The translations under genes were made by a program, and so were the position numbers. This document shows positions 1-40,348 of a DNA stretch of 64,000 bases, piece by piece. The notes beneath the pieces were generated by a model. It had not been told where the DNA came from. It searched no databases and saw only the letters and a program-made list of their open reading frames with translations. How positions within the stretch are numbered: position 1 is the stretch's first letter; each line of letters begins with the position of its first letter. This DNA is from Corbicula japonica (taxonomy: Eukaryota > Mollusca > Bivalvia > Venerida > Cyrenidae), in contig JAZAYU010000003.1 of assembly GCA_038501625.1 (NCBI GenBank), positions 2,483,001 to 2,547,000 on the forward strand, written 5' to 3'.

Positions 1-99
1 CCAGTAATGTTAGCCAATCTCGGAGCTCCGCCACCGATCGGTCAAACTCAGTCCAGTCAGGTCTTCCTGCTGGCTGACTGGCTGCCTGAGATACTTTCA
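1..99 (-). CDS. DMD: Dystrophin exon (human exon 51 equivalent), hinge 3 and start of R20, 3' part outside the window
   Basis: Open at the left edge; acceptor GATTGCAG. Two bases complete Val, then KVSQAASQPAGRPDWTEFDR and SVAELRDWLTLL, matching human ADFNRAWTELTDWLSLL. Hinge 3 is much shorter than in human: about 25 residues between the end of R19 and PDWTEF, against some 45-50. The acceptor has a weak pyrimidine tract, so the exact 5' border is slightly less sure, but the phase fits the preceding exon. Confidence 0.9.
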
Positions 100-779: not shown

Positions 780-996
780 CTTGTGCAAAGACTTCATGGA
801 CAGAGGAATCTAGAGGAGTAGGTTCTAGTTTGTCGGAAAGCTCTTTGACAACTCTCCAATCAGCATTCAGCTGGTCATATTTGGTCTGGACTGGTTCTGG
901 TAATTCAGAGGTGTTATACTCGATGGTGATTTCATCATAACTTTGATTGACTTTGTCGATGTTATTCTGCCTAGCTCTCACTGCCTCCTGGGTAGT
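780..996 (-). CDS. DMD: Dystrophin exon (human exons 49+50 in one), R19 end
   Basis: 217 bp after CCATTTCAG, donor GTATGA, ending with one base. Human exons 49+50 total 211 bp. It encodes TTQEAVRARQNNIDKVNQSY, EYNTSELPEPVQTKYDQLNA and DWRVVKELSDKLEPTPLDSS, closing R19 (human LSSEWKAVNRLLQELRAKQP). It then runs into hinge 3 with VHEVFAQ. Confidence 0.95.
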
Positions 997-1957: not shown

Positions 1958-2143
1958 CTGTGGATCTACAATAATCGAGTCCTGTTCATCAACACTAGTA
2001 GCAGACTGTGCATGACGGCTCTCAAGAACCTCGCGGGTTTTGTTCACCCAGGACTGAAGCTGCTCAATATCTGACGTGAAAGTCCGCAGCTGATGTAGAT
2101 GGCGCTCTACATTGTGTATACTGTCAGGTATCTCATTCATTAC
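1958..2143 (-). CDS. DMD: Dystrophin exon (human exon 48 equivalent), R18/R19 junction
   Basis: 186 bp, exactly the human length, 62 codons, phase 0 to 0, between CATTTTAG and GTACTGG. It encodes VMNEIPDSIHNVERHLHQLR, IEQLQSWVNKTREVLESRHA and SVDEQDSIIVDPQ. Helix A of R19 has the Trp in QSWV (human LLWL). Confidence 0.96.
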
Positions 2144-3076: not shown

Positions 3077-3226
3077 CTTAGCCCAGCGGGCGTTGAGGTT
3101 ATCAAGATCCTTATGGATGTTTTCTGTGTCTTGACTGTTTAAATTGTCATGTTTTACAAGAACTTCGCCATTTCTGTTGATGGCTGCTACTGTCTGCTTC
3201 TTGGCTGGAATGTCATCTTCACGGTC
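3077..3226 (-). CDS. DMD: Dystrophin exon (human exon 47 equivalent), spectrin repeat R18
   Basis: 150 bp, exactly the human length, 50 codons, phase 0 to 0, between TTGTACAG and GTGAGC. It encodes DREDDIPAKKQTVAAINRNG, EVLVKHDNLNSQDTENIHKD and LDNLNARWAK. Human has LNETGGPVLVSAPIS and LKQTNLQWIK at the matching places. Confidence 0.96.
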
Positions 3227-4913: not shown

Positions 4914-5058
4914 CCTCATTTTTTCCAACAATTCTTCAAGAAAATGTTCGTCTGGTTGTAGTGGTGTAGAGATTATATTTTCCGTCTCGTCGATCCAGAA
5001 GAACATCTCATCCATGTCATCAGTAAACTCACTTGTTTTTACGCTGGCCTGCTCCAAC
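4914..5058 (-). CDS. DMD: Dystrophin exon (human exon 46 equivalent), R18 helix A
   Basis: 145 bp after TTTGTCAG, donor GTATGT. The first base completes Arg, then LEQASVKTSEFTDDMDEMFF, WIDETENIISTPLQPDEHF (human WLEEADNIASIPLEPGKEQ) and LEELLEKMR. It leaves phase 0. The human exon is 148 bp. Confidence 0.97.
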
Positions 5059-5813: not shown

Positions 5814-5989
5814 CTCTCCTGTCTGTCAAGAACTTCCGAGGAGATATTTTTCCATCGCTGGTTAACAGCATCCAGTTTTTCTCGTAGTTTGCTGGAGTCC
5901 GGGGCAGCCGACTGTCGGATGATTTCATTTCCTGCAGCATTCATACTGTTTACGGTACCTTGATGATCTCGAATCTCGAGTTCCAGTTC
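5814..5989 (-). CDS. DMD: Dystrophin exon (human exon 45 equivalent), spectrin repeat R17
   Basis: 176 bp, exactly the human length, between TTATTTAG and GTAATG, ending in phase 2. It encodes ELELEIRDHQGTVNSMNAAG, NEIIRQSAAPDSSKLREKL and DAVNQRWKNISSEVLDRQER. Human reads ELQDGIGQRQTVVRTLNATG, EEIIQQSSKTDASILQEKL and GSLNLRWQEVCKQL. Confidence 0.98.
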
Positions 5990-6553: not shown

Positions 6554-6695
6554 CACAAAGGATTTTTCCAGAAGCTTGTTGTCCTGCATGTGTTTGAGGT
6601 CGGCCAGCTTCTGCTCTGATTCTGTCAGCCATTTTGTTACTGCTGCAAGATCCTTGTGATACTGACGCCACTGTTCTGCCGCTCGAGTCCATCGT
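6554..6695 (-). CDS. DMD: Dystrophin exon (human exon 44 equivalent), R17 helix A
   Basis: 142 bp after ATTTCAG, donor GTACAA. The first base completes Arg. It reads RWTRAAEQWRQYHKDLAAVT and KWLTESEQKLADLKHMQDN (human SVEKWRRFHYDIKIFNQWLTEAEQ region), ending LLEKSFV. This helix lies in the repeat that vertebrate dystrophin uses with R16 to bind nNOS. Whether that function exists here cannot be told from sequence. Confidence 0.96.
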
Positions 6696-13382: not shown

Positions 13383-14280
13383 TTAACCTTTAACTCTACT
13401 GATAAGACTTCTATACATAATGTGTGAACAATGTAGATCCTAGAATTTATATACGTAATGTGTGAACAATGTAGATCCTAGAATCTATATACGTAATGTG
13501 TGAACAATGTAGATCCTAGAATCTATATTCATAATGTGTGAACAATGTAGATCCTAGAATCTATATACATAATGTGTGAACAATGTAGATCCTAGAATCT
13601 ATATTCATAATGTGTGAACAATGTAGATCCTAGAATCTATATTCATAATGTGTGAACAATGTAGATCCTAGAATCTATATACATAATGTGTGAACAATGT
13701 AGATCCTAGAATCTATATTCATAATGTGTGAACAATGTAGATCCTAGAATCTATATTCATAATGTGTGAAGAATGTAGATCCTAGAATCTATATACATAA
13801 TGTGTGAACAATGTAGATCCTAGAATCTATATTCATAATGTGTGAACAATGTAGATCCTAGAATCTATATACATAATGTGTGAACAATGTAGATCCTAGA
13901 ATCTATATTCATAATGTGTGAACAATGTAGATCCTAGAATCTATATTCATAATGTGTGTAATGTGTGAACAATGTAGATCCTAGAATCTATATTCATAAT
14001 GTGTGAACAATGTAGATCCTAGAATCTATATTCATTATGTGTGAACAATGTAGATCCTAGAATCTATATACATAATGTGTGAACAATGTAGATCCTAGAA
14101 TCTATATACATAATGTGTGAACAATGTAGATCCTAGAATCTATATACATAATGTGTGAACAATGTAGATCCTAGAATCTATACTGATCACTTCTTGACCT
14201 GAAATAACCTAACACTGTTGATCCAGATGGAATGGCATGGATGTGCTGGCTAATCTTGATCTACACTGTTTACCCATGCC
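13383..14280. mobile_element. MITE-B copy expanded by an internal minisatellite
   Basis: Left end TTAACCTTTAACTCTACTGA and right part (CTGAAATAACCTAACACTGTT, GGCATGGATGTGCTGGCTAA) are MITE-B. The intervening GTGTGAACAATGTAGATCC arm is amplified into the array at 13420-14182. Confidence 0.75.
13420..14182. repeat. Minisatellite of 38-bp units, about 20 copies
   Basis: The unit begins ATGTGTGAACAATGTAGATC and ends with a variable TATACATA, TATTCATA or TATACGTA. Copies are almost identical. One unit near 13950 carries a 9-bp stutter (GTGTGTAATGTGTG). The unit equals a MITE-B hairpin arm plus a short joining sequence. Confidence 0.95.
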
Positions 14281-14508: not shown

Positions 14509-14681
14509 CTGTGCCTATCGGTGTACATTTCACTGATATCCTGCCACGAGGAATGCAGTTCCTGCAGCATGGTACGTATTCTCTGCCTCTCGTCCAGTTC
14601 ACACTGTTGATACACGATCTCTTTCTCTCGGTCTACTTTGTCAATGCCCGCTTTAGCCTCTTCCAGTCGTCTCTGAACCTC
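14509..14681 (-). CDS. DMD: Dystrophin exon (human exon 43 equivalent), spectrin repeat R16
   Basis: 173 bp, exactly the human length, after TCCATTACAG, donor GTAGGT, ending in phase 2. It encodes EVQRRLEEAKAGIDKVDREK and LQELHSSWQDISEMYTDRH, where human has LSQLDFQWEKVNKMYKDRQ. The helix C Trp is in SSWQD. Confidence 0.97.
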
Positions 14682-14839
14682 CTGTAATGGATCAAGCAGT
14701 GTCATTCTGTCGGAGTACTATACAGAAAATAAGTAACAAAAATTTATCTTAAAAATTAAAATCAACAGTTTCTGTTGGTCATTACCAGGTTTCCAAATAA
14801 AAAACAAGCTTTATTTATAATAGCATTTTTGGCTTTTTA

Positions 14840-20504: not shown

Positions 20505-20900
20505 CTTCAAGATATCTTCTTGTTTAGAAAAGTCATCGAAATCTTTGCCGCCGAGTTCTGGGCCAGTCAATTGTCTGTTGATATCAGCAATCTGGTCCGA
20601 GAGTCTCCGAACATCCACTCGGATCTGTGAGGGTGATCTGGGAGAAGCAGCCTGTGTCACGCTTGATTGAACAACTGTGTAAGTTGTCCTTGTCACTTGA
20701 CCTTCTGTGACCCCTGGCTCCATGGTGATCGGCGGATACTGTATCATAGCAACCTGATTGTTGATATCCTGCCATCGTCGCTGCAGACGGGCAATATCTG
20801 GTTCAACAAGTGCTCCTGCCCCTTTGTCTTGTAATGGCTGTGCCTGTTGTCGCAAAGTGTCAAGGTCACGCTGTCGTCTTTTCAGCTCGTCTTCAAATGC
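20505..20900 (-). CDS. DMD: Dystrophin exon (human exons 41+42 in one), R15, linker and R16 start
   Basis: 396 bp, 132 codons, phase 0 to 0, after TTCTGACAG. It encodes AFEDELKRRQRDLDTLRQQA and LVEPDIARLQRRWQDINNQ (human AVEPTQIQLSKRWREIESK), closing R15. A Pro/Thr/Val/Ser-rich linker follows (PPITMEPGVTEG, TYTVVQSSVTQAASPRSP), then helix A of R16 (LSDQIADINRQLTG and GGKDFDDFSKQEDILK). Human R15 and R16 are also separated by a linker here. R16-R17 is the nNOS-binding part of vertebrate dystrophin. A second in-frame donor at 20484 would add VIVVHSQ. Confidence 0.97.
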
Positions 20901-24336: not shown

Positions 24337-24532
24337 GTGCCTGAATTGTTTTTTCACTATTTTTGTCCATTATCAAAACCTAAGGGAAACTGGTATTTTT
24401 AAGCTCCTAACCAACTGGTTACAGAACCGTTAGAAGGCAGTTACTTCTGTGAGGGCAAGTTTCAAACCACAGACACAATTCTCTGCAAACAATTCTTACA
24501 GTGACACCAATGACACCAACTATTGCACTTAC

Positions 24533-24646
24533 ATTTTTCAAGACCAAAATTCCGAATCCTAAAATTCCTGCCATAAAGCACAGGAAGACCAGAGACAACA
24601 GCAGTGTCAGCGCCGACACCAGCGACAATATGTCGTCTGCTCCCAT
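24533..24646 (-). CDS. Candidate alternative first exon encoding a membrane anchor for a short dystrophin
   Basis: Seen: an ATG with A at -3 and G at +4 opens 38 codons ending exactly at GTAAGT in phase 0. The next dystrophin exon (20505-20900) starts in phase 0. The peptide begins MGADDILSLVSALTLLLSLV and ends FGILVLKN: two acidic residues, about 31 hydrophobic residues, then Lys. The exon is GC- and CpG-rich (GAC GAC, TCG CTG GTG TCG GCG CTG) in AT-rich intron, like real coding sequence. Acid before and basic residues after the segment (KN, then KRRQR of the next exon) suit an outside N-terminus and cytosolic rod. Vertebrate DMD likewise starts short isoforms from intronic first exons (Dp260, Dp140), at other positions. 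It could instead be exon 1 of an unrelated nested gene. Confidence 0.5.
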
Positions 24647-26471
24647 GTTAAACAGCACTCTATCTTCTGCTATATTTCCAAGCTTTCATTCTACACACAA
24701 AACAGTGGTTTGATTTCTCAGCAACAGCATTTTCTTTATTTCTCACAACAGGATATTAAGATCATAAGCACACGTTAAGCACATATCAATTTGATAATAT
24801 TCGAAGGTGAACCTCACACAGTAAGCTTCTGTCTCTTCCATAATTCAGCCTTAAGTCTTTTACATAATCCTCCACTTACGTGTTAATACAAATAACTGTT
24901 TTCAAAGCAGCAGTCAAGCAATATCTTTGAATTATCCGAGACAATCTCATAATATATAACCAAAATTCTTGCCTCCAAAATCGTTAAAACCTCAACAAAA
25001 TTCCAAATTGTTGAAATCTGAGCTAATTTCAATCAATCAAGATCCAACCTCTTAGTTTTATAAATATTTATCATCAATTTGTTTGTATACTTTAGGAGGT
25101 AAATCCAGTCAATGACTGCCACCAAAGTAATTATCAATCCTAAAATAAACTACAAGCCAAGCATCAAACATATTCTTCGGGATGCATGTTTTGTCAATGA
25201 GATGATTTTCAGTTCTGTATTGGCAGCACCTTTTGTGTATCTGTAATTTCCATCATTAATTGCATATCAATTCAAGAAATCTTGCATCTCTGCATGTTCT
25301 ATGACAAATGCAGTGAAGAGTTACGAAACCTGACATTATACTTCTTCAGCTTAACATGTCTAACAGAGGTGTTTTAAAGTATTCCTCAGTGACCTTTTCA
25401 TGGAATTTCTTTGAAAATAATTGGTGAATGATTAATGTAAGCTCGATTGGTGGAAATGATGTTTTTTTTTCTCCCTGGGAAATCCATCACTAGCCCACTG
25501 TTCTCAGGTGATCTATATGTGTGAACTATTTCAAGACACATATGGTTAATTAATTAAATTCCAGTAAATTACCACAGTTGACTCCAGCTATAATACCGGC
25601 TGGTATATCATTCTGTCTAAGAAATGAAATTTTTCCTGTTTGTTGTTCGCTGGAACTGCCTCCTGTGTAAAAATAATATTTTACTTTCTATAACTGTAAT
25701 CAATTCAATATTTCCGAAATAATGAGCATTGCAGACTTTCTCAGTTTTTATCCTTGGTAATTTTCTATGATTTTCTCCAATCAACCTTTTTCAATGGATT
25801 AGTTATGACATAATCCAACAATCTGCCAGTAATTTGTTTTCTCAAACAAGCAAAGCCTGCTAAAAATTCATTCTAACATTTTTTTCTTACCACTAACATC
25901 ATGCATTTCAAGTTAACGGATTTCAAAATTCTTGGTAAAATTTGTTCAAACTAACAAGAGCACTATGTCTTGACTCTAACCTCACACATTCCAGATTCCA
26001 TGTTCTGTCGCAATAGACAGCCCTAAGCAGAAAGCAGAAATCCAAAAATTAAGAAGAAAACTTATAAAACCCAATCATTTCCTTGAAAAATACATGTTAT
26101 GATCACAGCAGATGAATGAATTTGTTGACACTGTTTGAAGAACTAGAACTAGATCACCCTGTAGCATGTGACGAAACTTTTGCAGAAGACGCAAAATCTG
26201 TTATTAGACAAGCTTAAAACATATTTTCGAAAGACACCATGTCAAAGAATATGACCTTTAGAGCTAGATTCTAGTAAACCCTTGGTAGAGACACAATACA
26301 TCCTTCATGAACATTACTTTTTTCCAAAAGAAGTCCAAAGAAAAATCACAAAACAGCAGGCACTGTTGAAAATTATGTCACAACACCATATCCTGCACAG
26401 CTTAAAATTTAATCCAATTTTCAGCTGACAATTTTTCTCTGGATCAGGTTCTCATTTAACACAGCAACAAG

Positions 26472-29248: not shown

Positions 29249-29753
29249 CTAATGTAGATATTGTTATGTAAATGAAAGCAGATTTCTCTATTTCAGATAT
29301 TAATTATATAAAAATAATACAGTTAAACCGATTATCTTCATATATGTTACTGTTAAAGCAATAAGGTTTTTGGCATCATTCAACATAGCAGGAAAGTCAT
29401 TACTTAAAGCTCATTTTAGCTATATTTTAAGATTACTTCAGCATGGCATCTCACTTTGAGAAGTAACATATTTTTTCTTATATCTTTTTGTTCAATGTAG
29501 ACAGCAAAATCATGTATTAGGTAACATATATTTCACAATTTATCAAATAGCTATTGCTTATGTGCTAAAATACAACCTATTTTTTACATCATGAGTTGTA
29601 GAGTTTGTATGATTATTCACCAAAGTAATATTATTATGTTACCTTTTGTTAAAATTGCTTTATCTGGTACAAACAAATGTAGGAATTTAACATGAACGTT
29701 CATGAACAACAACAAATCAGAGATGCAGACAAGACTGTTGTAACAACATTGCA

Positions 29754-29995
29754 TTAACCCTTTCCTCCAGATATACACATTTTGACTCATGTGCGACCAG
29801 TGTAGATCCAGATCAGCTGGCACATCCGTGCTGTCTGATCAGGATCTGCACTGGTCGCATTTTGGTCAGAAATAACCTAATGAATCAAAAAGCGAACAGT
29901 GCAGATCCTGATCAGACGGCATGGATGTGCCAGCTGACCTGGATCTGCACTGGTCGCACATACGTAAAATGCGTATATATGGAGGAAAGGGTTTA
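29754..29995. mobile_element. MITE-B reference copy, full length
   Basis: The best complete copy: TTAACCCTTTCCTCCAGATA to TATGGAGGAAAGGGTTTAA, with both hairpins well matched and GGTCAGAAATAACCTAATGA between them. Confidence 0.9.
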
Positions 29996-30459
29996 AGAAG
30001 AAATTACTCCAGTCTTGCATGCAACCCTGGAAATATGATAATCTAGAAAAAAACAACACTGTTTTGGTAGTAAATGATGCCTTGGCAAGCCAACTAATGA
30101 TCATCTCTCACAACTACTTCAAAACAGCTTCTAGTATCGTGTACTCGGCTTCTATTTCTTTGCAAACAATCGTGTAAGTAACACTTAAGACAACAGAAGT
30201 TGTTCTGATATTCCCAGACATAAGCTTGACAAGCAATCATTGTGAAGAAGATACAAACATGTCATAACACATTTCTACAACTAATTGTTTATTGTACAAT
30301 GTATCCTGTACAACCTCATAACTGTAACACAAATCAACAAGTGTTTAGTTTTTCTAGTTTTTTTTATTTCAATTTCATTGCCATCAAGCAAACTTCATCC
30401 TCAAAGTATTTTTCAATGCTGGAAATAAATTCCAAAAACTCTGCCCAAAGCAATTGAGT

Positions 30460-32144: not shown

Positions 32145-33845
32145 GAAAACCAGGTTTTCATTTAATACTTATACTTTTGTAAAGAAAATATCTGATATGA
32201 AGAAACTGAACTTCTATTTTTAGCAACAGTGACCTTGATCTTGATCACAGACTTCTGAGTAGAAATCCCGAGTTGCGTCTTGGTATCAGCTACCCAAAGA
32301 AAGTTTGGTGTCAATAGATCACAGCTAACCCAAGTAATAAGGAGAAACCTAAATTTCTATTTTAAGCAAAAATGACATAGACCTTTATCACAGACACCTG
32401 GGTATCAATCCTAAGTAGTGTCTTGATATAAGCTACCCACAAACCAAGTTTGGTGTCAATAGGCCAAAGAAAACTCAAGCTATTGAGCAGAAACTGAATT
32501 TCTATTTTTAGCTACAGTGACCTTGAGCTTTATCACAGGCGCCTGGGTAGCAATCTCAAGCTGCATCTTGATATTAGATACCAACACTAAGTTCGGCGTA
32601 AATATACCAAAGCAAACTCAAGTTATTGACGGAAAACTGAATTTCTATTTTTAGCAACTGTGACCTTGACCTTGATCACAGATACCTGTGGCAATCCCAA
32701 GCTGTCTTTTGATATCAGCTACTCTGTATAATACTAAGTTTGGCATCCAGAGGTAAAAGCAAACTCAAGTTATTGAGGGAAAGCTGAATTTCTATATTTA
32801 GCAAGTGACCTTGACCTTTATCACAGACACCTGGGTAGCAATCTCAAGCTGCCTGTTGATATAAGCTACCCACAAACCAAGCTAAGCATCAACAGGCAAC
32901 TTGGCATCAACAGATAACATTCACAAAATACTTAACAAAAATCTAAGTCAAAAAGGGGCATAACTTTTGCAAAACACAGTCAGGGGTTATGAAACTTGAC
33001 CTGATAATTGGTACTGTGATGTCAAACAATTATGTAAAGTTTCAAAGCTATACCTTGAATAGTAACTGAGAAAAACACAACTTTCACAAAAAACTTAACA
33101 AAATTTCTAAGTGAAAAAGGGGCATAACTTTGTCAAAATACAGTCAGGGATTTTGAAACTTGTCCTGATAATTGGTATTGATATGTCAGACAACTATGTT
33201 AAGTTTCAAAGTTGTACCTTGAACCGTTACTGAGAAAAACACACTTTCAAAAAAACTTCACAAAATTTCTAAGTGAAAAAGGGGCATAACTTTGTCAAAA
33301 TACAGTCAGGGATTTTGAAACTTGTCCTGATAATTGGTATTGATATGTCAGACAACTATGTTAAGTTTCAAAGTTGTACCTTGAACAGTTACTGAGAAAA
33401 ACACAACTTTCACAAAAAACTTCACAAAATTTCTAAGTGAAAAAGGGGCATAACTTTGTCAAAATACAGTCAGGGATTATGAAACTTATGCTGATAATTG
33501 GTATTGATATGTCAGACAACTATGTTAGGTTTCAAAGTTTTACCTTGAACGGTTACTGAGAAAAACACAACTTTCACAAAAAACTTCACAAAATTTCTAA
33601 GTGAAAAAGGGGCATAACTTTGTTAAAATACAGTCAGGGATTATGAAACTTGTCCTGATAATTGGTATTGATATGTCAGACAACTATGTTAAGTTTCAAA
33701 GTTGTACCTTGAACGGTTACTGAGAAAAACACAACTTTCACAAAAAACTTCACAAAATGTTGACGCCCCCCCACCCATCCGCCCGCCCGCCCAACGACAT
33801 ACCCTAATCTAATAACCAGGATTTTTCTAAAGAAAACCTGGTTAA
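32145..33845. mobile_element. Tandem-core element inserted in a minisatellite
   Basis: Bounded by GAAAACCAGGTTTTC (32145-32159) and GAAAACCTGGTTAA (33832-33845). Two tandem cores are present. Five ~140-bp units at 32211-32925 carry CAGTGACCTTGACCTTGATC and TGGGTAGCAATC. Five ~165-bp units at 32930-33770 carry AAAAAGGGGCATAACTTTG and CAGTCAGGGATTATGAAACT. A GCCCGCCCGCCC tract and a terminal hairpin (AACCAGGATTTTTC / GAAAACCTGGTT) close it. Pearl-like by architecture. Confidence 0.65.
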
Positions 33846-34255
33846 ATATCAGTGCTACTTATGAAATATCAGTTACACTCATGAAAATATCAGTGCCACC
33901 AATGAAAATATCAGTGCCGCTTATGAAATATCACTTACACTCATGAAAATATTAGTGCCACTCATGAAAATATCAGTGCCATTTGTGATAACAACAGTGC
34001 CACCAATGAAAATATCAGTGCCACTTATAAAATATCACTTACACTCATGAAAATATCAGTGCCACCCATGAAAATATCAGTGCCATTTGTGATAACAACA
34101 GTGCCACAAATGAAATATCTGTGCCACTCTTGAAAATATGAGTACCACTCATGGAAATATCAATGTCACTCATGAAAACATCAATGCCACTCAAGAAAAC
34201 ATCAGTGCCACTCATGAAATATCAGTTACACTCATGACAATATCAGTGCCAGAAA
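33846..34255. repeat. 22-bp minisatellite, right portion
   Basis: About 18 diverged units of AAATATCAGTGCCACTCATG, some with ACAACAGTGCC or CAGTTACACTC variants. Confidence 0.75.
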
Positions 34256-36440: not shown

Positions 36441-36575
36441 AAAAAAATAATAATGACAAATGCCAAGGTTTTTTAATTTGTTTTATTGATGACAGTGAAA
36501 TGACAAAGATGCAATACCTTAGATTATCTCCATCGAAAAACACCCAATCTCAAGATAGTCTCACTTATTACCATG

Positions 36576-36805
36576 TTAACCCTTTCCTCCATAAATAGGC
36601 ATTTTTACGCATGTGCGACCAGTGTAGATCCAAATCCGTGCCATCTGATCAGGATCCGCACTGGTCACATTCAAGTCAGAAATAACCTAATGAATCAAAA
36701 AGCGAACAGTTTAGATAATGATCAGACAGCATGGAAGTGCCGTCTGATTTGGATCTAAACTGTCTGCCCTTGCAATAAAGGTGTGTCTATGGAGGAAAGG
36801 GTTAA
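36576..36805. mobile_element. MITE-B copy, near-intact
   Basis: TTAACCCTTTCCTCCATAAA to TATGGAGGAAAGGGTTAA. Confidence 0.85.
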
Positions 36806-39309: not shown

Positions 39310-39536
39310 TTAACCCTTTCCTCCATAAGACACACCTTTATTGCGTGGGCAAACAGTTTAGATCCAGATCAGCCGGCACATCTGTGCTGTCTGATCAGGA
39401 TCTAAACTGTTCGCTTTTTTATTCATCAGGTTATTTCTGACCAAAATGTGACCAGTGCAGATCCTGATCAGATGACACAGATGTGGCTGATCTGGATCTA
39501 CACTGGTCGCACATGCATATATGAAGGAAAGGGTTA
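39310..39536. mobile_element. MITE-B copy, near-intact
   Basis: TTAACCCTTTCCTCCATAAG to ATGAAGGAAAGGGTTAA, opposite internal orientation to the 29754 copy. Confidence 0.85.
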
Positions 39537-40180
39537 ACGAAAAAGAATACTGGTCTCCAAATGGTCGGATATCAAAGGAGCAGGGCTGGAAGAGAAGCAA
39601 ACCCAATAGCTGAATTTTACAACAGTGAATGTTCTTACACAACAACAAGCCAGATAAAGCTATCACTGCAACGCTCTTAATCTTTGTTGTATGGAAAAAT
39701 ACATTCATAATATTTGAGGGTTTCACGCAAGACTATTGTAACTACATTAAAATATAGAAGGAGTTATGACAGTCTTGCGTGCAAGCCTTAAAAATTTAAT
39801 TTTACATTGAATTAAAACTACCTACATTTTTTAAAATATTTTTGAAGTTAAGAACAACATTTATTTTTTAATAAAACAACTCCAAGAGTTATTGGCCATG
39901 CTTAAGCTTACGTATGGGTCGCAAGAAGGAATAATGACCAGCTTATCAAGGTAGGTGAATGGATAAGTGAGAGTATAGTTACAGACAAACAGTACAAAGT
40001 CTCTGTCCAAAAGCATCATTTTGAAGGTGAGGTCATTTGTTCAAAAGCATGTCATGGTAAAGGATATATTTAACCAGGACCTTGGTAAGTCTGTGTACTT
40101 TGATAAAGTCTGTTTGTAATACAAGAAAGTCTACAGTTTGCTGATAAGGAGGTGAAGAGGGGAGTGTGTATAATAATTAC

Positions 40181-40348
40181 CTTGTGAATTTCTCTATTGA
40201 TATTGGCTACTTTAATATTAGCATCCATGGCTTCCAGATTCATATCGAGATCTTGTGCTGTCTGTTTGAACTTTGTCCAGTTGGGTACGATGATGACCAG
40301 CATCTTACGCTTCTTCTCTGTGTCAGATTTCAACGTCTCCCAGGCATC
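40181..40348 (-). CDS. DMD: Dystrophin exon (human exon 40 equivalent), R14 end and R15 helix A
   Basis: 168 bp, 56 codons, phase 0 to 0, between CATTGACAG and GTAATT. It encodes DAWETLKSDTEKKRKMLVII, NWTKFKQTAQDLDMNLEAM (human HQWYQYKRQADDLLKCLDDI) and KVANINREIHK. The donor opens the longest intron of the window (19.3 kb), which holds a candidate alternative first exon. Confidence 0.95.

Follow-up and report, generated by a model that had tools for sequence, protein, structure and literature searches.

Does an open reading frame in a large intron of the dystrophin gene of Corbicula japonica open the coding sequence of a shortened dystrophin, and would its peptide give that protein a membrane anchor of its own? 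Dystrophin is known as a peripheral protein whose link to the membrane is beta-dystroglycan. A conserved isoform with its own helix would, if true, attach the dystrophin complex to the membrane in another way, one that dispenses with the N-terminal actin-binding domain. Such an isoform bears on the original role of short dystrophins and is directly testable in animals with good transcriptomes. From the analysis of a 64-kb stretch of the genome (hereafter the window; Table 1) we propose, with a probability of roughly 0.84, that the candidate exon E1 opens a short dystrophin, is spliced in frame to the dystrophin exon starting at 20900 (E2) and contributes a membrane-spanning helix that would tether the protein to the membrane at two points. 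The isoform is well supported, and its membrane role is predicted.

Table 1. Position of E1, of the dystrophin exons and of other features in the window
Feature	Position	Strand	Remark
E1, candidate alternative first coding exon	24533..24646	minus	38 codons MGADDILSLVSALTLLLSLVFLCFMAGILGFGILVLKN; predicted single transmembrane helix
E1 splice donor GTAAGT	24527..24532	minus	phase 0
E1 5' flank	24647..24690	minus	in-frame TGA, no in-frame ATG between TGA and start
Dystrophin exon upstream of the 19.3-kb intron	40181..40348	minus	ends in phase 0
E2, dystrophin exon joined by E1	20505..20900	minus	phase 0 start with AFEDELKRRQRD
E3, dystrophin spectrin-repeat exon	14509..14717	minus	
E4, dystrophin exon	6554..6695	minus	3' end uncertain, weak donor
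E5, dystrophin exon	5814..5989	minus	43/58 residues identical to P0002
E6, dystrophin exon	4914..5058	minus	P0002 match
E7, dystrophin exon	3077..3226	minus	P0002 match
E8, dystrophin exon	1958..2143	minus	P0002 match
E9, dystrophin exon	780..996	minus	P0002 match
E10, dystrophin exon	1..99	minus	extends past window edge
Apparent dispersed repeat, examples	29706-29996, 36504-36758, 39358-39732	both strands of introns	

The candidate exon and its host gene

E1 sits 3.6 kb ahead of the exon that starts at 20900, within a 19.3-kb intron whose upstream neighbour is the exon ending at 40181. A first, sequence-only reading of this DNA had described a minus-strand ATG at 24646 that opens 38 codons and leads to a GTAAGT donor in phase 0, and this is borne out: from a start in the context AAC ATG G, the translation consists of MGADD, 31 uncharged residues and KN. 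The donor scores 7.8 with our own approximate matrix, a value attained by 1.8% of the 1140 GT dinucleotides in the intron and lying inside the range of 1.8 to 13.0 that the 14 accepted dystrophin donors of the gene span on the same approximate matrix. The reading frame alone is not closed at the donor, because the unspliced frame continues to 24422, that is 75 codons from the ATG; the length of 38 codons thus holds up to the donor, where GTAAGT is found and conservation ends (see below), and does not hold for the unspliced frame. The exon is also, as had been noticed, rich in GC and CpG within an AT-rich intron, with a GC content of 0.465 vs. 0.345 and a CpG observed/expected ratio of 0.86 vs. 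0.31; only 1.9% of the 114-base windows of the intron reach its GC content and 2.3% its CpG count.

The exon that E1 would join encodes a portion of spectrin repeat 15 together with the stretch after it. E2 has an acceptor score of 10.3, reads AFEDELKRRQR at its start and matches residues 1916–2041 of the solved dystrophin 9c3c_D (PDB, E=1e-9), in agreement with the earlier claim that the next dystrophin exon opens in phase 0 with a basic KRRQR cluster. In the full-length form the exon upstream of the intron presumably joins E2, judging by phase. In a composition scan of the window the minus strand showed 26 spectrin-like stretches and the plus strand a single one, which was also the weakest.

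Upstream of E1, a search for a core promoter gave nothing convincing, with TATA-like words confined to -312 and -416 and loose initiator-like words at five places (both tallied without a control). The transcript would begin in, or reach into, the 19.3-kb intron, with E1 as its first coding exon, and a weak possible acceptor (first exon base 24690, score 5.4) makes a further 5'UTR exon upstream possible. This acceptor-like site, others such as that at 25139 (score 7.0) and the phase-0 ends of the neighbouring exons would also suit a cassette exon included in full-length dystrophin, with the helix placed mid-rod. However, the phase-0 frame from 24690 is closed by a TAG six codons on, and E1 has a TGA in its own frame just upstream, so that the long protein would terminate short of E1 if E1 were included, and the upstream flanks are not conserved; given these in-frame stops, we regard a cassette exon as very unlikely. 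As a separate observation, the 504 bases before the start of E1 (24647–25150, minus strand) hold eight ATGs, one of which opens 32 codons (MEETEAYC...) in the frame of E1, closed by a stop. These upstream ATGs possibly reflect translational control or a spliced 5'UTR.

The intron also contains translated fragments of dispersed repeats, and E1 might be imagined to be one of these or a reading frame open by chance. We looked on both strands of the window for a hydrophobic leader, defined by a run of at least 19 residues free of D, E, K, R, H, N, Q and P close to the start and a hydropathy of at least 1.9, followed soon by a phase-0 donor scoring at least 7.5 (thresholds of our own). E1 is the sole candidate in the 64 kb, and shuffling the 19.3-kb intron 100 times (first order) produced none. 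A search of the 1.07-Gb genome with the DNA of E1, which skips very common words, returned a single match, E1 itself. Other contigs conserve the peptide from its Met up to the donor, and a relative has it in spliced form. An origin by chance or from a repeat is contradicted by the genome search, the shuffles and the conservation, and we give it next to no weight. Pfam assigns no family, at E-values up to 1, to the unspliced reading frame of 88 residues. The repeats are visible as a recurrent translated motif (VDPDQ.AHPC.LIRICTG and similar) at many places on both strands of the introns, apparently a dispersed repeat, and the introns of the gene carry in addition tandem arrays at 13412–14182, 32916–33758 and 33844–34251, with units of 38, 164 and 21 bases, respectively.

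A spliced relative and the limits of conservation

A search with E1 and E2 joined had a sole match among 1655 candidates, the protein P0002 of 1837 residues, with 45% identity over 99% of the 170 scored residues. P0002 reads MADDLVTLVAALTILISLAILCFIAAALVFGMWVLKN/AVEEELKRRQRD, where the slash marks the predicted E1–E2 join, and the join falls at the same residue (VLKN/AVEEELKRRQRD). Compared singly with E1, it is identical in 22 of 36 aligned residues (E=4e-13). The longest P0002 contig measures 11,664 bases, whereas the matching stretch in the window genome is 105 kb long and colinear with it; a contig of at most 11.7 kb against 105 kb of gene must therefore stem from spliced RNA. Its source tag 'lgn' we take to denote the Logan assemblies of public reads. 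The sequence-only reading had proposed a transcript joining E1 to E2: the join stands, since it recurs in the spliced sequence of this relative, and transcription in the window species itself we infer.

From residue 56 onward P0002 aligns in one stretch to residues 1915–3693 of 9c3c_D. Its domains are Spectrin, EF-hand_2, EF-hand_3, ZZ and WW, the last with 25.5 bits slightly below the 26.9 of Pfam, and a coiled coil is present as well; Pfam detects no CH domain. The remainder of the P0002 matches, with the WW, EF, ZZ and coiled-coil exons, lies on the contig of the window, no more than 80.7 kb beyond the window edge. Counted from Met18, P0002 has 1820 residues and a mass of 209 kDa. Its start is not certain, and neither is that of P0018, because in both an in-frame Met lies 17 residues upstream; in P0018 and in residues 1–17 of P0002 it adds the hydrophobic MFPVIETTAAVLVLLSV, which is absent in the window, in P0019 and in P0023.

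A two-row profile search in which proteins of about 102–324 residues were admitted gave 32 matches. According to our own reading of the sequences, 15 of these represent the E2 exon (P0003–P0017) and three contain E1 (P0018, P0019, P0023); the other 14 presumably belong to vertebrate utrophin, which they resemble. Also by our reading, P0018 is the E1 of the P0002 species, reading on past the donor, and P0003 is the unspliced E2 of that species, at a tree distance of zero from P0002. Thus in one and the same species E1 and E2 stand apart in two contigs and are joined in P0002. This is the one spliced E1–E2 sequence found: a search starting from P0002 for isoforms of 1,010–3,215 residues recovered, among 3056 candidates, P0002 only. 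Because both protein searches returned no other dystrophin, the collection seems poor in dystrophins and such an absence says little.

The 38 codons singled out at the start are indeed conserved elsewhere, in P0002/P0018, P0019 and P0023. The last 36 residues of E1 share 30 residues with P0019, 28 with P0023 and 22 with P0018, the first two being separate contigs, whereas the 13 residues upstream share one, one and two, and the 20 residues after the donor four, six and two, respectively. Conservation is thus bounded by the Met and by the donor, which fits a peptide running from one to the other. Just past E1 the translated relatives read V-S or V-N, either of which would be encoded by GTNAGY or GTNAAY, the relatives being known as protein only. 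With 61% identity to P0002, E1 lies above seven of the nine rod exons compared (23–46%) and below two (63 and 74%); in order, the nine exons after E1 show 42, 23, 43, 74, 63, 46, 31, 30 and 38% identity. The C-terminal exons, outside this count of nine, are often more conserved than E1, several of them at 85–92%. Taking together the splice join of the relative, the conservation from Met to donor and the comparison with the rod exons, we regard it as very probable that E1 is a genuine first coding exon.

Of the 15 E2 matches, 11 fall with the window in a midpoint-rooted tree of E2; the group of P0002 comprises P0003, P0006, P0015 and P0017 (support for P0017 only 0.62). P0002 likely comes from another class or phylum than the window species. 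For P0019 and P0023 a setting in a dystrophin gene is assumed, because their contigs are 4.9 and 1.2 kb long.

Predicted membrane helix and topology

The charge layout noticed in E1, an acidic start, a hydrophobic run and then KN, is kept in all four known sequences. They start with MGADD, MADD, MGVTDD and MGVTDE, and in every one exactly 31 uncharged residues separate the acidic start from Lys or Arg followed by Asn. The best 19-residue segment scores between -11.9 and -13.3 in the four sequences (octanol scale), and AlphaFold2, run on the alignment of the four, predicts one helix over residues 3–37 with a mean pLDDT of 93. The next exon brings KRRQR within 11 residues, both in the window and in P0002. 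All four sequences thus combine an uncharged hydrophobic stretch long enough for a single pass with charge asymmetry. Under the positive-inside rule the basic flank is found on the cytosolic side, and E1 is strongly predicted to form a single transmembrane helix with the N-terminus outside and the rod in the cytosol.

Two other fates of the hydrophobic peptide have to be weighed. The isoform could be real and its leader no anchor, packing instead on a partner or on the membrane surface, as the leader of Dp260 may do; Dp260 is a precedent of a short isoform with a hydrophobic leader, and dystrophin in general needs no built-in anchor to get to the membrane. The 31 uncharged residues in four of four sequences, the score of the 19-residue segment and the conserved acidic start and basic end speak against such packing, and we hold it to be improbable. 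A cleaved signal peptide, which would send the rod into the secretory lumen, would account for a peptide that is both N-terminal and hydrophobic; yet none of the four starts has a basic residue ahead of the hydrophobic run, the run exceeds the usual length of a signal peptide and the basic cluster comes after it. Moreover, the partners of dystrophin are cytosolic, as is generally known and as stated in PMC10293626, which suits a cytosolic rod and leaves cleavage with hardly any likelihood. Myristoylation of the MG start was also considered and rejected: position 6 departs from the consensus and P0002 lacks Gly2.

With E1 as a membrane anchor, the helix of about 35 residues would pass once through the membrane with its acidic N-terminus outside or in the lumen, and the basic KN...KRRQR stretch would keep the rod cytosolic. 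The protein would be devoid of the CH actin-binding domains and of the first part of the rod, and would retain part of repeat 15 onward, the WW domain, the EF hands, the ZZ domain and the coiled coil. It would thereby have two points of attachment to the membrane, its own helix at one end and, at the other, the presumed binding of beta-dystroglycan through WW-EF-ZZ. It is conceivable, although unlikely, that the isoform is an old and conserved one whose ends lie in two different membranes, the helix in the ER, the sarcoplasmic reticulum or a vesicle and the C-terminus on beta-dystroglycan of the cell surface, spaced apart by about ten spectrin repeats. If this were true, dystrophin would there be a tether of membrane contact sites and not a link to actin.

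Position among short dystrophins

The alignment of P0002 residue 56 to 9c3c_D residue 1915 places the join of E1 at dystrophin residue ~1914, which we take to be the vertebrate exon 40/41 boundary, i.e. the position of intron 40, as the sequence-only reading had it. Its remark that the known intronic starts of vertebrate DMD lie elsewhere agrees with this: the join coincides with none of introns 29, 44, 55 and 62, those of Dp260, Dp140, Dp116 and Dp71. The E1 isoform shares the features of short dystrophin isoforms, namely a unique intronic coding exon in frame to a downstream exon (phases in the window, join in P0002), spectrin repeats and WW-EF-ZZ in the absence of CH domains (in P0002) and a first-exon peptide conserved between species (four sequences).

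Spectrin-repeat rods held to a membrane by a helix of their own are known from the nesprins (KASH proteins), whose anchor is C-terminal and resides in the nuclear envelope, whereas the predicted anchor of E1 is N-terminal and belongs to a dystrophin with WW, EF and ZZ. Among the dystrophins, Dp260 has a hydrophobic leader of 16 residues. The E1 isoform resembles Dp260 in that an intronic coding first exon leads into the rod, the remaining rod and the C-terminal domains are kept and the leader is hydrophobic; it differs in the intron used and in a leader that is much longer. The first exon of vertebrate Dp260 is situated just before exon 30 and is found in tetrapods but not in fish, according to PMC1790709. 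The same paper places vertebrate Dp116/G-utrophin, sea urchin SuDp98 and fly Dp205 at the intron 55 position; like E1 these short dystrophins arise in an intron of the rod region, and by P0002 numbering they would start ~800 residues further on. Dp186 and Dp117 of Drosophila, which are described in PMC2958114 as arising from internal promoters, are likewise invertebrate short dystrophins and are likened to the E1 isoform on that description.

The remarks in PMC1790709 that internal dystrophin promoters accompany large introns (citing Neuman and colleagues) and that the coding first exons of short dystrophins are highly conserved fit E1, which is conserved and lies in a large intron. Neither 'hydrophobic' nor 'transmembrane' is used in the main text of that paper. 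Among the papers listed by our searches of a literature in which subscription papers are mostly lacking, we found no dystrophin with a transmembrane exon, no start at the intron 40 position and no short isoforms of molluscs. Internal first exons are already known in dystrophin genes, and it is the intron 40 position and the predicted membrane helix that we did not find described.

Two further large intervals were noted downstream of the window. Successive exon matches are separated by a 32-kb gap (window coordinates -7762 to -39949) at P0002 residue 870/871, a place that corresponds roughly to vertebrate intron 55 and may harbour a further internal start. A second large intron, of 13.8 kb, extends from -60743 to -74505 between P0002 residues 1550 and 1551.
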